Assembly: GCF_009720625.1 (NCBI RefSeq)
Contig: NZ_CP046266.1
Span: 379,501 to 443,500 of the forward strand
Length of the DNA stretch: 64,000 nt
Direction of reading: 5' to 3'
DNA from: Metabacillus sediminilitoris
GTDB taxonomy: Bacteria > Bacillota > Bacilli > Bacillales > Bacillaceae
Part shown: piece by piece, positions 11,531 through 17,124 of the stretch
How the letters are laid out: every line of letters begins with the position of its first letter
Numbering within the stretch: the first letter of the stretch is position 1
Notes under the pieces: generated by a model
Databases searched by the model: none
What the model was told of the DNA's origin: nothing
The model's input: only the letters and a program-made list of their open reading frames with translations
Program-made: the position numbers and the translations under genes

Positions 11531-12718
11531 ATGAAAAAAGATGGCTCGTACCACTTTGAAACAAAAGCAATCCATGCAGGATATGATGCAAAAAAACATT
11601 CGGATAGCTTAACTCCGCCAATTTATCAAACCTCTACTTTTGCTTTTTCCTCATTACAGCAAGGGGCGAATCGATTTGCTGGAACTGAAGATGGTTATAT
11701 TTATTCCCGGCTTTCTAATCCTACTGTTTCCGTACTTGAAGAACGCATTGCACAATTGGAGGGAGGTGAAGCTGCCCTTGCTTTTGGATCTGGCATAGCT
11801 GCAGTTTCAGCTGCGTTAATAGGATTAACAAAAATGAATGATCATATTTTATGTTCAAAAGGTTTATATGGCTGCACTTTCGGTTTGCTACAGATGCTCC
11901 ATGAGAAATATTCGATCGATTATTCCTTCTCCGAATTAAAATCTACAGAAGACATCCTTAAAAATATTCGGAAAAATACAAGGTGTATTTATATCGAAAC
12001 ACCAATAAATCCTACAATGAAATTAATTGATTTAAAGTTAATCGCTAGTATTGCAAAAGAAAAGGGAATAATTGTTGTTGTCGATAATACCTTTTCAACT
12101 CCATATTTGCAAAAACCTTTGCAATTAGGCTGTGATCTTGTCATCCATAGTGCGACAAAGTATATTTGCGGGCATGGTGACGTTATTGCCGGCCTCGTTG
12201 TTGGGAATCAGGACATGATTGCAGGAATAAAGAAATCAGCCCAGAAGGATATAGGCGGAATTATTTCTCCTTTTGATGCGTGGCTTTTACTGCGGGGGAT
12301 TAAAACATTAGCTGTAAGAATGGACCGCCATTGTGAAAATGCAGAAAAGCTTGCTGATCAGTTGAGAAAACATCCAAAAGTGAAGTCTATTTATTACCCA
12401 GGAGACAAACACCATCCAGATTACGAAATCATGAAGAAACAAATGAAAAAAGCTGGGGGGCTTCTTTCATTTGAGGTAAACGGGACATTTGAAGATGTTG
12501 TAAAGGTCGTTAATCAGTTAAAGTTAATTCCAATTGCAGTAAGCCTTGGTGATGCTGAAACACTTATTCAGCACCCAGCCTCGATGACACATGCTGTAGT
12601 CCCTGAGGAAGTAAGAATCGAAATGGGAATATCGAATGAATTGCTGCGTTTATCGGTTGGACTTGAAGCTTGGGAAGATATTTGGGAGGATTTAAAACAG
12701 GCTTTAGATACATTATAA
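11531..12718 (+). CDS. L-methionine gamma-lyase (PLP, Cys/Met metabolism family)
   Basis: This is a 395-residue fold-type I PLP enzyme of the Cys/Met metabolism family. Diagnostic residues are Tyr113-Gly-Cys115-Thr (the Cys that marks methionine gamma-lyases), the GSGIAAVSAAL phosphate-binding loop, ETPINPTMKLIDL, and SATKYICGHGD with the Schiff-base Lys at about 210. It should split methionine to methanethiol, 2-oxobutyrate and ammonia. Cystathionine gamma-synthase or -lyase activity is a less likely alternative. The ATG at 11531 follows AAGGGGG; the frame continues upstream to 11504 without an SD. It is monocistronic, with terminators on both sides. Confidence 0.85.
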   Translation: MKKDGSYHFETKAIHAGYDAKKHSDSLTPPIYQTSTFAFSSLQQGANRFAGTEDGYIYSRLSNPTVSVLEERIAQLEGGEAALAFGSGIAAVSAALIGLTKMNDHILCSKGLYGCTFGLLQMLHEKYSIDYSFSELKSTEDILKNIRKNTRCIYIETPINPTMKLIDLKLIASIAKEKGIIVVVDNTFSTPYLQKPLQLGCDLVIHSATKYICGHGDVIAGLVVGNQDMIAGIKKSAQKDIGGIISPFDAWLLLRGIKTLAVRMDRHCENAEKLADQLRKHPKVKSIYYPGDKHHPDYEIMKKQMKKAGGLLSFEVNGTFEDVVKVVNQLKLIPIAVSLGDAETLIQHPASMTHAVVPEEVRIEMGISNELLRLSVGLEAWEDIWEDLKQALDTL

Positions 12719-12724
12719 GAAGTT

Positions 12725-12775
12725 AAAAACCAACTCTTCGATTTGGAGTAATTTGTATCGAGAGTGGGTTTTTTA
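12725..12775 (+). terminator. Terminator of methionine gamma-lyase gene
   Basis: AAAACCAACTCTTCGAT pairs with ATCGAGAGTGGGTTTT and continues into a T-run. Confidence 0.8.
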
Positions 12776-12937
12776 GCTTTTACATATAAATGTTTTGAAT
12801 ATCTGAATGTTGGGAAAAGTATAGAAATTTAGTGCAGAAAAATTAATATGTTAAAATAGTTAAAGTGTATATTGAATCATAATTGCACAAAATATACTGT
12901 CAAAAATAGAAATATTTTTAAAGGGGTGTTGAAGGGA

Positions 12938-14359
12938 ATGCAGGTAATCGAAAACTTAATAAATGGAACGAATAATCTTCTTTGGTCTTATGTACTAATT
13001 ATTTTATTAATTGGAGCAGGTGTTTATTTTACCGTACGGACAAAATTTGTTCAATTTCGTATGATTGGTGAAATGTTCAGACTTTTAGGTGAAGGAGCAA
13101 TGGCTGATAAAAAAGGTGTTTCATCTTTTCAGGCATTTTGTATTAGTACTGCTTCACGGGTAGGTACTGGTAATCTCGCTGGTGTTGCAATAGCCATTAC
13201 AACTGGAGGTCCTGGGGCTGTATTTTGGATGTGGTTAATCGCATTAATAGGATCAGCGTCAGCGTTTATAGAAAGTACATTGGCTCAAATATATAAAGTG
13301 AAAGATGGCGATACATACCGAGGCGGGCCTGCCTACTATATGGAAAGAGCACTAAATGCACGCTGGATGGGTGTAACTTTTGCAGTGATCATTTCATTGA
13401 CATTTGGATTGGCATTTAATTCAGTTCAGGCTAACACGATTACAAGTGCTCTTAATGGATCATTTGGAATTAACAAGGTGTTAATTGCAATTGTCCTGTC
13501 AATTATTACAGCTGTTATCATATTTGGCGGATTAAAAAGGGTTGCAACAGTATCTGAATTTATGGTGCCAATTATGGCAGGTGCTTATATTTTAATGGCT
13601 CTCTATATTGTAATCGTGAATATTACGGAAATACCAAGTGTATTCGTTCTAATTTTTCAGAGCGCATTTGGTTTAAATGAAGTAGCTGGCGGTGCACTAG
13701 GTGCTGCGATGATGAATGGAATTAAACGTGGATTATTTTCAAATGAGGCTGGTATGGGTAGTGCTCCTAATGCGGCAGCTACTGCTGATGTTAGTCATCC
13801 TGTAAAACAAGGACTAATTCAAGCTCTTGGTGTTTTTGTGGATACTCTTTTAATTTGTAGTTCAACAGCTTTCATCATTTTATTGTCAGGTCTTTATACT
13901 TCAAATGAATCAGACGGTATCTTGCTTACACAAAATGCACTTGAAACAGCAATGGGATCTTGGGCAGGGATATTGCTTGCTGTCATTGTATTCCTATTCT
14001 GCTTTAGTTCGGTTGTAGGAAATTATTATTACGGTGAAACAAACATTGAATTTATTAACACTAATAAATTGTGGTTAAATGTATATCGAGTTGCAGTTGT
14101 TGCTATGGTTGCCTTTGGCTCTCTTGCATCATTAAGTTTTGTATGGAGTCTTGCGGACCTGCTTATGGGGATAATGGCAATCATTAACTTAATAGCCATA
14201 GTGTTATTAGGGAAAATTGCTATCGCTGCACTCAATGATTATATGAAGCAAAAAGCAAGCGGGAAAAATCCAGTCTTTCATGTTTCAAATATTAAAGGGT
14301 TAAAAAATGTTGAAGCTTGGGGTAGTACTGCACAGCAAGATAAAGGTCGTACCAAATAA
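12938..14359 (+). CDS. Alanine/glycine:cation symporter (AGCS family)
   Basis: A 473-residue sodium:alanine symporter-type protein with about 11 TM segments. Family motifs visible are FCISTASRVGTGNLAGVAIA, GGPGAVFWMWLIALIGSASA, the YRGGPAYYMERAL loop, and GLFSNEAGMGSAPNAAATAD. It imports Ala, Gly or Gln with Na+ at the membrane. I prefer the ATG at 12938 (GAAGGG just upstream), giving the standard N-terminus MQVIENLINGTNNLLWSYV. The frame extends to 12872 without an SD. A second AGCS gene lies at 55758-57230; the two differ in regulation because only that one has a glycine riboswitch. Confidence 0.9.
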   Translation: MQVIENLINGTNNLLWSYVLIILLIGAGVYFTVRTKFVQFRMIGEMFRLLGEGAMADKKGVSSFQAFCISTASRVGTGNLAGVAIAITTGGPGAVFWMWLIALIGSASAFIESTLAQIYKVKDGDTYRGGPAYYMERALNARWMGVTFAVIISLTFGLAFNSVQANTITSALNGSFGINKVLIAIVLSIITAVIIFGGLKRVATVSEFMVPIMAGAYILMALYIVIVNITEIPSVFVLIFQSAFGLNEVAGGALGAAMMNGIKRGLFSNEAGMGSAPNAAATADVSHPVKQGLIQALGVFVDTLLICSSTAFIILLSGLYTSNESDGILLTQNALETAMGSWAGILLAVIVFLFCFSSVVGNYYYGETNIEFINTNKLWLNVYRVAVVAMVAFGSLASLSFVWSLADLLMGIMAIINLIAIVLLGKIAIAALNDYMKQKASGKNPVFHVSNIKGLKNVEAWGSTAQQDKGRTK

Positions 14360-14434
14360 GCAGCTAAAAATGCACATATCATATTTTTAATAAAGGTTCT
14401 GTGAAAGCTTATTGTTGATTTTAGCATTATGTAT

Positions 14435-14476
14435 GTTGATTGTAGCGGAAAGCGAACGCCTCTCGCTGCAATCAAC
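14435..14476. repeat. Short palindromic relic of the GC-rich repeat family (copy A)
   Basis: GTTGATTGTAGCG...CGCTGCAATCAAC: the two ends of the larger repeat found at 23.8, 38.7 and 44.7 kb joined by a short centre, as if internally deleted. It can fold into a single hairpin. It lies between the AGCS gene and the MerR gene. Confidence 0.7.
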
Positions 14477-14581
14477 AGGCAGGTTTAACAAATCCTTAAT
14501 AAGGTAAATTATTTGTATGGAATACCAAGTTAGGGTAAAATTTTATGTAATTCTATCGCGTTATGGTTTGGAGGAGGATAA

Positions 14582-14983
14582 ATTGGGGAAAACAAACTGA
14601 AAATAGGCGAGCTAGCTGAACTTACACATGTAACAAAGCGAACAATTGACTATTATACAACGATTGGTTTATTAAAAGCAGAACGTTCTCCTTCTAATTA
14701 CCGTTATTACGATCATAGTTCCATAGAAAAGCTGAATTTTATTGAAAAATGTAAAAAAGAAAATATGTCTTTAGAAGATATTAAGAGTAAGTTACTTGAG
14801 AAGGATGCTGAAGAAATCGATGTCCAAGATTTAAGATTGAAAATAAAAGGACTAGAGAGTGATGTTTCAAAGCTGTTAGCTAATTTTGATAAAAACGATC
14901 CTAATGCTCATGAGTCTATTAAAAAGAGTATTTCTCAAGAAAGTTTGTCATTAATACAAACCTTATTGCTACTATTAAATTAA
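14582..14983 (+). CDS. MerR family regulator with an apparent ATT start
   Basis: A 133-residue protein with a complete MerR N-terminal winged helix (LKIGELAELTHVTKRTIDYY, then TTIGLLKAERSPSNYRYYD) and a C-terminal helical part (KIKGLESDVSKLL). No Cys pair for metal sensing is visible in the C-terminus. A canonical start is absent: the frame is closed by TAA at 14579-14581, directly before ATT (14582), and the first ATG (14765) would remove the whole DNA-binding domain. GGAGGAGG at 14570-14577 sits just before the ATT. The gene is 42 bases upstream of the YhdP/MpfA gene and may regulate it; an analogous MerR gene, yhdQ, is near yhdP in B. subtilis. Confidence 0.8.
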   Translation: MGENKLKIGELAELTHVTKRTIDYYTTIGLLKAERSPSNYRYYDHSSIEKLNFIEKCKKENMSLEDIKSKLLEKDAEEIDVQDLRLKIKGLESDVSKLLANFDKNDPNAHESIKKSISQESLSLIQTLLLLLN

Positions 14984-14990
14984 TCATTAT

Positions 14991-15028
14991 AGGAGGTGTA
15001 GGTCTTACTACTGTAAGACTACTCATTG
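14991..15028 (+). promoter_or_regulatory. SD and TTG start separated by a perfect hairpin
   Basis: AGGAGGTG at 14991-14998 is 27 bases from the TTG start at 15026, too far in linear RNA. Between them GTCTTAC (15002-15008) and GTAAGAC (15013-15019) form a perfect 7-bp stem with a TACT loop. Folded, the SD-to-start distance shrinks to nine bases. In-frame stops at 14999 and 15014 exclude any earlier start. Translation should therefore depend on the hairpin. Confidence 0.65.
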
Positions 15029-16345
15029 ACCATTTTTAACTTATCATTAATTGTATTATTAATCGCTTTAACTGGATTTTTTGTGGCAACAGAATTTGCA
15101 ATTGTAAAAGTACGTATGTCTAAAATTGATCAACTAATTGCAGAAGGAAAAAAAGGCGCACTTGCCGCTAAAAAGGTCGTTTCTCATTTAGATGAATATT
15201 TATCAGCTTGCCAATTAGGAATTACGGTTACTGCATTAGGTTTAGGTTGGTTGGGAGAGCCTACAGTAGAAAAAATACTACACCCTGTGTTTGAAAGATT
15301 TAACTTTAATGAATCCTTAACACATATTCTTTCATTTGGTATTGCCTTTGCCGTTGTTACCTTTTTACATGTTGTTGTTGGTGAACTTGCTCCTAAAACG
15401 GTTGCCATTCAAAAAGCTGAAGCAATTACCCTAGCTACTGCTCGTCCAATTATTTTGTTTTACAAAATTATGTACCCATTTATTTGGGCATTAAATGGTT
15501 CAGCACGATTGCTTGTAGGGATCTTTGGGATGAAGCCAGCCTCAGAACATGAATTGGGACTTTCTGAAGAGGAATTACGTATCTTAATGTCGGAAAGTTA
15601 TAAAAGCGGGGAAATAAATCAAAGTGAATTGAAATATGTAAATAATATTTTTGAATTCGATGAAAGAATCGCAAAAGAAATTATGGTACCCCGAACTGAA
15701 ATTGTAAGTATTTCAATTGATAATTCATACGAAGAGGTAGTAAAGATCGTACAATCTGAGAACTATACACGATATCCTGTAGTGGATGGAGACAAAGATA
15801 ACATTCTTGGATTTTTAAATGTAAAAGAATTTCTAACTGCAAAGGTAATGAATGATATAAATGTCCAGGATATGAAATTAGAAACATTCATTAATCCCGT
15901 TATTCGTGTCATTGAAACGATACCAATTCATGACCTCTTAGTAAAAATGCAAAAGGACCGCACACATATCGCGATTTTAATCGATGAATACGGCGGTACA
16001 TCCGGTTTAGTTACTGTTGAAGATATCATAGAAGAAATTGTTGGAGAAATTAGGGATGAATTTGATGATGATGAAGTTTCTGAAATTAGAAAATTAGCAG
16101 AAGATCATTATCTTTTGAATGCTAAAGTTTTAATCAGTGATGTAAATAATTTACTTGGTACGAATTTAGATGATGAAGAAATTGATACGATTGGCGGCTG
16201 GATGCTGACACAAAATTTTGATGCGCAAGTTGGCACTGAAATTGAAGCAGAGGATTATGTGTTTAAAGTGAAAGAGATTGATGGTCACCATATCATATAT
16301 TTAGAAGTAAAAAAGGTAAACACCATGAATAGTGTCATGAATTAA
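15026..16345 (+). CDS. mpfA: CNNM/CorC family magnesium export protein, YhdP (MpfA)-like
   Basis: A 439-residue protein: N-terminal DUF21/CNNM membrane domain (about 1-200, with [13 protein letters not shown] and [20 protein letters not shown] as in YhdP), tandem CBS domains (about 215-335, with [10 protein letters not shown] and [20 protein letters not shown]) and a CorC/HlyC C-terminal domain (about 350-430). B. subtilis YhdP/MpfA protects against excess Mg2+ and is the closest match by N-terminus. The start is TTG at 15026, behind a hairpin-bridged SD. It is probably co-transcribed with the upstream MerR gene and ends at a strong terminator. Confidence 0.88.
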
Positions 16346-16368
16346 TAGCCCTTTTTAAGGATTTTCAG

Positions 16369-16415
16369 ACTGTAGACAAACTCGGTGAAATTTGAGTTTG
16401 CCTGCAGTTTTTTTA
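16369..16415 (+). terminator. Terminator of mpfA-like gene
   Basis: ACTGTAG-AC-AAACTC pairs with GAGTTTG-C-CTGCAGT, followed by seven T residues. Confidence 0.82.
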
Positions 16416-16591
16416 ATATGTAATTAACACAATTCACAAAACACCTGCCATTACTAGTAACTATATCGGCTGCATGCCCTCATATTAAAGAGAGTGTTCG
16501 TAGAGTTCTTCTCTCATTAATGATGTTAACTTGATAAAATCACAAAATGGGTTCAGAAAGATAGATTCTGAGCCTCTTATATCGAAAAACT

Positions 16592-16616
16592 AAAAAGCCC
16601 TTAATAAGGGCTTTTT
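16592..16616. terminator. Bidirectional hairpin terminator
   Basis: AAAAAGCCC-TTAATAA-GGGCTTTTT is a perfect stem with T-runs on both strands. On the minus strand it lies downstream of the Spo0E-like gene. From 16416 to 16591 nothing else is recognisable. Confidence 0.75.
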
Positions 16617-16668
16617 AAGGGCTTTTTTTTGAAAATATTATGACTAGGCAGAAGCAAGAGGATAATCA

Positions 16669-16836
16669 TTAACTACATGACTTTAATAATAATTGAGTTT
16701 CGAAAATTAATTTGTCCAATTCTTGGCTATATTTAATTGTTTCCGGGTTATCCATTCCTTTTGTTTGCGCGGTTACAATCATTAGCCTTCTAGCCAGACT
16801 AATTTTATTTGCTAATTCAGATTCTAAATATGTCAT
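16669..16836 (-). CDS. Spo0E-like aspartyl-phosphate phosphatase
   Basis: A 55-residue protein, MTYLESELANKISLARRLMI at the N-terminus and KYSQELDKLIF later. The SQELD signature is the catalytic hallmark of the Spo0E family (Spo0E, YisI, YnzD), which dephosphorylates Spo0A-P and delays sporulation. The size fits the short YisI/YnzD type: two helices forming a hairpin. The ATG at 16836 follows AGGAG nine bases upstream. It is monocistronic on the strand opposite to its neighbours, with a hairpin terminator 50 bases beyond the stop. Confidence 0.9.
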   Translation of the reverse strand: MTYLESELANKISLARRLMIVTAQTKGMDNPETIKYSQELDKLIFETQLLLKSCS

Positions 16837-17124
16837 AGTTCATAGCTCCTAATAAGATGGTAAGATCGTATATTTATATTATTAAGGATTTTGAAAGATT
16901 TTGAAATGCTTTCGACAATTGTTCTATGAAAAAGACAATTTTCCTCGAGATTTTCACACATGCTTTAACTCCAAATAATTAAAATACACATTCCTTTACT
17001 ATAAATTGTTAAGAATAGGAACATCCGTATAACAAAAATTAAGTTGGAAAAGATAAATTCAACAACAATTAAAGTTTTAATGAGATGCTATGACGATCTT
17101 ATGGGTAATTAAAGGGAGTTACGA

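Follow-up and report, generated by a model that had tools for sequence, protein, structure and literature searches.

The analysed stretch of 64,000 nucleotides from Metabacillus sediminilitoris (hereafter the window) contains an MpfA-family gene that very probably uses a split ribosome-binding site, in which a folded hairpin bridges a distant Shine-Dalgarno (SD) sequence and the start codon, the bridge perhaps being the control point of a low and adjustable synthesis of the exporter. At the sequence level, the leader comprises a distal SD, a hairpin, and no earlier in-frame start, with covariation of the stem and a near-constant folded spacing among relatives, and this arrangement is found mainly in Bacilli and before MpfA-family genes. 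These features suggest that the hairpin likely bridges the SD to the start, that translation of the gene probably depends on it, and that it is perhaps regulated by the helicase CshB. Such a bridge would account for a TTG start that has no SD close by.

Table 1. Features of the split site and its surroundings (positions within the window).
Feature	Position	Strand	Basis or remark
MerR-family gene, neighbour outside the hairpin element	14583..14983	+	Directly upstream; TTG 14583-14585, its best-placed start, is not in the MerR coding frame
Extended Shine-Dalgarno AGGAGGTG	14991..14998	+	Sequence; SD of the candidate split site
5' arm of the bridging hairpin, GTCTTAC	15002..15008	+	Sequence; covariation
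Loop TACT	15009..15012	+	Alignment: sequence and length variable in relatives
3' arm of the bridging hairpin, GTAAGAC, containing in-frame TAA 15014-15016	15013..15019	+	Sequence; covariation
Unpaired linker TACTCA, preceding the start	15020..15025	+	3' gap measures 5-7 nt in 138/180 leaders
TTG start codon	15026-15028	+	Sequence
YrkA/MpfA-type gene, TTG start, 439 aa, CNNM, CBS pair and CorC_HlyC	15026..16345	+	Domain matches, identity

The perfect 7-bp stem between the SD and the TTG, described in the initial annotation with a linear spacing of 27 nt and a folded spacing of 9 nt, is exact to the base, the difference being the 18-nt hairpin. Its exclusion of earlier starts by in-frame stops holds as well: the TAA of the 3' arm is in frame with the TTG, and no in-frame ATG, GTG, or TTG lies between them. 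Perfect stems of 7 bp with a 3-8-nt loop are frequent in the window (80, against 32-54 in five mononucleotide shuffles), so that such a stem is unremarkable by itself. A GGAGG at most 12 nt upstream accompanies one of these 80 stems on the + strand, the hairpin at 15002-15019, and none on the - strand. The stability of the 121-nt stretch around the hairpin is not unusual (z -0.76); the SD-to-start segment alone is unusually stable (z -3.4, reached by none of 100 shuffles). The reality of the element is settled by its conservation across leaders. In predictions for the free leader the SD is largely paired (28% unpaired at 37 °C), so the ribosome would have to open part of the leader. The Rfam 15 covariance models, applied to positions 12000-17000 at E up to 1, gave no match over 14991-15028. 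A mechanical scan for the SD-hairpin-start order before 654 ORFs in 864 kb of the M. sediminilitoris genome (40 stretches and the window) returned seven candidates, two of which are clean single hairpins by eye, those of the window gene and of the genome's other close MpfA paralogue.

The domain order of the window gene (CNNM, CBS pair, CorC_HlyC) is that of MpfA, and its protein is 71% identical to YrkA of Bacillus subtilis, the best of the five family genes there, and 64% to YhdP/MpfA. We take the reference genome to be B. subtilis 168, in which the names yrkA and yhdP/mpfA were assigned from map positions. By identity the gene, named yhdP/mpfA in the initial annotation, looks YrkA-type. Four B. 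subtilis paralogues of MpfA, YrkA, YhdT, YqhB, and YugS, are named in the accessible text of one study (PMC8844918), in agreement with the five family genes counted here. The family has a role in Mg2+ tolerance according to the accessible parts of two studies (PMC6711546; PMC8844918), and its members are putative Mg2+ exporters of Bacillus-like bacteria.

Leaders of the family were gathered via protein similarity, disregarding the hairpin, from same-genus genomes, 80 named loci, and family- and class-level samples. Among the 234 distinct leaders obtained, 197 have a good SD but no in-frame start 4-13 nt downstream, 17 have a conventional in-frame start, and 20 have no SD of at least 6 nt. Starts in the 197 distant-SD leaders are mostly TTG (166; ATG 24, GTG 7), and the predicted hybrid of their distal SD with the anti-SD has a median of -15.2 kcal/mol, reaching -8 or better in 196/197. 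The linear SD-start distances are evenly distributed modulo 3 (67/67/63), which together with the in-frame stops rules out a coding or N-terminal extension of the gene. A conserved leader peptide was also rejected: an ATG follows the SD in L004, yet an ATG, GTG, or TTG at normal spacing (5-12 nt past the GAGG) is present in just 18/197 leaders. By eye, several of the 17 leaders with a conventional start still carry the hairpin, and a few of the 20 SD-less ones show GGGGGTG and a hairpin; L021 keeps the hairpin before its TTG, a recognisable SD upstream being absent.

A helix of at least 4 bp was found between the SD and the start in 180 of the 185 distinct leader segments, which begin after GAGGTG, and the folding z is below -2 in 169 of them. 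In these 180 leaders the linear distance is 32.8±6.8 nt (19-56), whereas the folded distance, counted from GAGG, is 9.8±2.2 nt, with 84% at 8-13 nt; shuffled segments form a helix in 2649/3700 cases, with a folded distance of 13.6±6.4 nt and 35% at 8-13 nt. An earlier subset of leaders gave 10.1±2.5 nt in 116/120, and a looser definition letting the TG of the SD pair, since superseded by the GAGGTG-bounded segments, gave 7.9±4.0. The hairpin varies in length among leaders while the folded SD-start distance hardly changes, which, with the covariation described below, supports the proposal of the initial annotation that the hairpin connects a distant SD to the TTG. The hairpins of the relatives have a median stability of about -10.4 kcal/mol, and their main helices range from 4 to 16 bp. 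A terminator can be set aside, as five Ts precede the start in just 4/176 hairpins. In L277, L162, L339, and L341, a T run after the hairpin ends in the TTG start and resembles an intrinsic terminator by eye. A closed state was likewise dismissed, namely the pairing of the SD with the start region that RNAalifold predicts: its five pairs have no both-sided changes, and pairing of the SD with the linker and start does not exceed that with shuffled linkers (0.314 vs. 0.355, 163 leaders).

Covariation in relatives, the check that the initial annotation had proposed, was observed for the stem. In 47 YrkA-type leaders, taken from 71 short ones by the letters of the start codon and not by the stem, 98.2% of the cells of the seven stem pairs are standard-paired, against 24.8-44.2% with one arm slid. 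Both-sided changes occur at five of the seven pairs and amount to 27 cells, vs. 8.8 in shuffles, none of 500 shuffles reaching 27; one pair is UA in 27 leaders and CG in 20, with no intermediate. When the 71 short leaders are read in the modal geometry, at least four of the seven pairs are Watson-Crick in 40 of them, and the remaining pairs of these 40 are GU (14), AC (4), or other (2). The covariation within the YrkA type rests partly on few independent events, as on a protein tree of 77 rows (pair states taken from the 60 rows fitting the CTTAC/GTAAG pattern) the UA/CG pair changes only three times and the outermost pair ten times, and the two supported independent pair comparisons both agree (p 0.5), too few for significance. 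Across all families, 176 hairpins present 70 distinct sets of the outer five pairs. With one mismatch allowed, the 54 different outer 5-mers found in the 5' arm group into 10 clusters, one of which holds 40, so that the 5' arm keeps a pyrimidine-rich character and the stem sequences are not wholly unrelated. Two Priestia plasmids (L307 and L350) have an identical loop and, by eye, an outer pair that alternates between G-C and A-T, which from the sequences is a natural compensatory pair.

A strict automatic rule classed 64/95 Bacilli leaders as split, while just 4/560 shuffled upstream regions passed it. These 64 comprise 58 of the 88 evaluable class-sample leaders (16/20 families; the sample was drawn from 89 places in the upper part of the match list), four of the five B. 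subtilis paralogues, one Listeria, and one Priestia. The other 31 fail the rule, some being conventional (e.g., L137, L146) and others failing through ambiguous starts. All five B. subtilis paralogues display the SD-hairpin-start order by eye, which makes the element directly testable; in the one missed by the rule (L275), in-frame TTG codons inside the hairpin could serve as starts. Outside Bacilli, 27 loci were retrieved and 16 leaders were evaluable, of which one is split, and weakly so, and nine are conventional; the copy on a Paraclostridium plasmid also has a conventional leader. From these leaders, the bridging hairpin is widespread in Bacilli and rare outside. A covariance model built from the 47 leaders gave 42 matches at E<0.02 in 60 family genomes, 41 of which precede MpfA-family ORFs (the exception, L340, is without an ORF); because many of the matched leaders had built the model and the search filters were stricter, this result speaks for specificity and not for frequency. 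The element looks old, retained in Mg2+ exporter genes across Bacilli. One Listeria monocytogenes record (L306, NZ_CP030101.1) is deposited as a plasmid, its 2.9 Mb suggesting a chromosome. Bacillaceae-like mpfA loci were also seen in records titled Desulfosporosinus or Chryseobacterium (L039, L040, L054, L108), perhaps through contamination or mislabelling.

In the mechanism that we propose, the 30S subunit would pair with the extended SD AGGAGGUG while the adjoining hairpin stays folded and spans the gap between the SD and the start, so that the UUG, at an effective distance of about 9 nt from the SD, would reach the P site. The combination of a very strong SD, a bridge, and a weak UUG start would keep the synthesis of the exporter low and adjustable post-transcriptionally. 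The bridge would be the control point, most likely via unwinding (by a DEAD-box helicase, e.g., CshB) or through the ribosome's state, and not through melting of the stem as such. In Staphylococcus aureus, the accessible text of one study reports that slow growth without CshB is suppressed by mpfA mutations (10/15 suppressor strains) and that mpfA mRNA is higher without this helicase, an effect that the authors call possibly indirect (PMC5122736); a hairpin in the leader would give a physical target to this unexplained genetic link. As far as the available parts of a second study go, loss of mpfA is suppressed by a mutation of an initiator tRNA or by an AUG start of the paralogue mpfB, and its authors read this as improved initiation on mpfB (PMC6711546), so that the strength of initiation seems limiting for at least one family member there. 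The protein S1 is said to have no major role in translation in B. subtilis (PMC3858243, accessible text), and a structured spacer may therefore persist. The CshB, mpfB, and S1 facts fit a possible control through the bridge. The leaders would also constitute a natural library of folded spacers for studies of initiation in bacteria where, as in B. subtilis, S1 is said to matter little.

The hairpin could also be a passive bridge, needed for the spacing but with no regulatory role, translation being constitutive; this reading, which denies only the control, is unlikely but to be taken seriously. It agrees with the absence of an Rfam family at the leader (Rfam 15, E up to 1) and with the description of T4 gene 25, in the accessible part of PMC3014915, as a split site serving effective expression. 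Nevertheless, the hairpin has been kept in many paralogues and families of Bacilli even though its deletion would immediately create an ordinary site. Far less probable is that Mg2+ or temperature opens the stem and shuts off translation, a form of the Mg2+- or temperature-sensitive switch that the initial annotation had raised as a possibility. The tolerance role of the family (PMC6711546; PMC8844918, accessible parts) would favor an Mg2+ switch, but the predicted occupancy of the stem is 0.988 at 37 °C, 0.963 at 60 °C, and still 72.7% at 80 °C. By these values, predicted for temperature, a switch by melting of the stem is unsupported, and an Mg2+ effect by another route is conceivable; moreover, the spread of the relatives' main helices, 4 to 16 bp, indicates that they are not tuned to one stability.

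The polarity of the arms, with more pyrimidines in the 5' than in the 3' arm in 173/176 hairpins, may avoid a second SD beside the first or keep a reserve SD. It would also be expected if the purine-rich 3' arm served as a weak SD, 5-9 nt ahead of the start codon and masked by a repressing hairpin, with the distal SD acting as a standby site or pairing with the 5' arm in an alternative fold. Indeed, the predicted proximal hybrid with the anti-SD is -5 kcal/mol or better in 108/197 leaders, L103 and L029 have AAGGAG or AAAGGA 5-7 nt from the TTG, and a second paralogue type reads AGGAGGTGACTCCT, whose SD and 5' arm could pair by eye. However, the proximal hybrids are no better than those of same-letter shuffles (mean -4.8 vs. 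-5.0, median -5.3), which retain the purine bias and thus keep the bias itself outside the comparison. Practically no proximal hybrid (above -3.5) exists in 59/197 leaders, while the distal one is almost always strong, and in the window the proximal value is just -0.4 kcal/mol. As it also leaves the near-constant folded distance from the distal SD to the start unexplained, we consider a sequestered proximal SD improbable. Nearly negligible, in our judgment, is a DNA palindrome bound by the MerR-type regulator encoded just upstream, in place of an RNA hairpin. A MerR gene does lie directly upstream here and at many related loci, and GTCTTAC-N4-GTAAGAC is a good palindrome. In contrast to the fixed arms and spacer of an operator, stems and loops come in widely differing lengths, asymmetric bulges included, and the distance of the palindrome to the SD and start is nearly fixed; GU wobbles outnumber AC mismatches (14 vs. 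4), as expected for RNA and not DNA, and the plasmid copies L307, L350, and L351 keep the hairpin, although a search of the 1.2 kb upstream detected no MerR gene. By eye, AGGAGGTGACTCCT occurs in L111, L024, L026, L027, L029, L030, and many of L072-L110, where the SD can pair with the 5' arm around a GTGA loop; a two-state leader, alternative to the bridge, is possible for this second paralogue type.

To our knowledge, a bridging hairpin between the SD and the start is known chiefly from two T4 genes. The literature searched, which excluded most subscription papers, holds no report of one before mpfA-family genes; the accessible text of PMC5122736 has no occurrence of hairpin, Shine-Dalgarno, TTG, or UTR, and that of PMC8844918 none of leader, UTR, TTG, or ribosome binding. 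In the T4 split sites, folding shortens the spacing from 27 to 11 nt (gene 25) and from 22 to 5 nt (gene 38), and close T-even phages reportedly share the gene 25 arrangement, which more distant ones lack (PMC3014915, accessible part). The MpfA leaders share with these genes a distant SD, an intervening structure, and a spacing shortened by folding (27 to 9 nt in the window). The SD is too far for normal initiation in the window and in the 197 distant-SD leaders, and the hairpin would restore a functional distance, as judged from the folded spacing of the 180 helix-forming leaders and the covariation; no competing start with a normal SD is present in the window, whereas 17/234 leaders do have a conventional one. 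Unlike the T4 cases, the arrangement belongs to a bacterial gene family and persists throughout a taxonomic class, with stems that differ in sequence and length; most members combine a TTG start with a very strong SD. By analogy, the MpfA leaders would work like the split sites of the two T4 genes, in a form that has become fixed in a family of bacterial genes. In Escherichia coli thrS, a bipartite ribosome-binding site is interrupted by a hairpin that binds the regulator ThrRS (PMC3858243, accessible text). A hairpin likewise interrupts the site in the MpfA leaders, although the thrS hairpin separates the SD from a U-rich element further upstream, and that of the window is downstream of the SD. 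The leader does not resemble an RNA thermometer in the predictions either, with the stem still formed at 60 °C and the SD outside it. The riboswitch of mgtE, which we take to be the M-box Mg2+ riboswitch, is comparable as an RNA in front of a gene of Mg2+ homeostasis; the window leader differs from it as a single small hairpin, with no aptamer seen and no Rfam match. That mgtE has a riboswitch is mentioned in the accessible text of PMC8844918.

The neighbouring MerR gene lies ahead of mpfA, in the same orientation, in 68/69 homologue rows (68 loci) within the fetched stretches, and displays a peculiar start. In the window (14570-14610) and at 67 other mpfA loci, the start codon placed by the SD is offset by one base from the MerR coding frame. 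TTG, ATG, or CTG followed by GGG or GGA is found in 68/69 rows, a pattern for which the search had asked. From the first conserved MerR codon back to the closest in-frame stop, 40/69 rows contain no in-frame ATG, GTG, or TTG, and in 44/69 there is no in-frame start within 15 codons; in other rows, B. subtilis included, an in-frame start further upstream is possible. The zero frame from the out-of-frame start ends after five codons in 37/68 and after nine in 20/68. From the sequence, either a conserved -1 shift at codon two or an unusual mode of initiation seems to be at work. A MerR-mpfA operon of Bacilli that senses Mg2+ through the ribosome, by means of the bridged UUG split site and a MerR -1 shift at GGG, is a speculative and rather improbable extension; if true, both steps would respond to the Mg2+ loading of the ribosome or to helicase action, a feedback without a ligand-binding riboswitch. 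Downstream of the GGG, third-position variation follows the MerR frame (44 rows), with a weaker contrast in the first three codons, and in a Sporosarcina copy the annotation starts the MerR gene at ATT.
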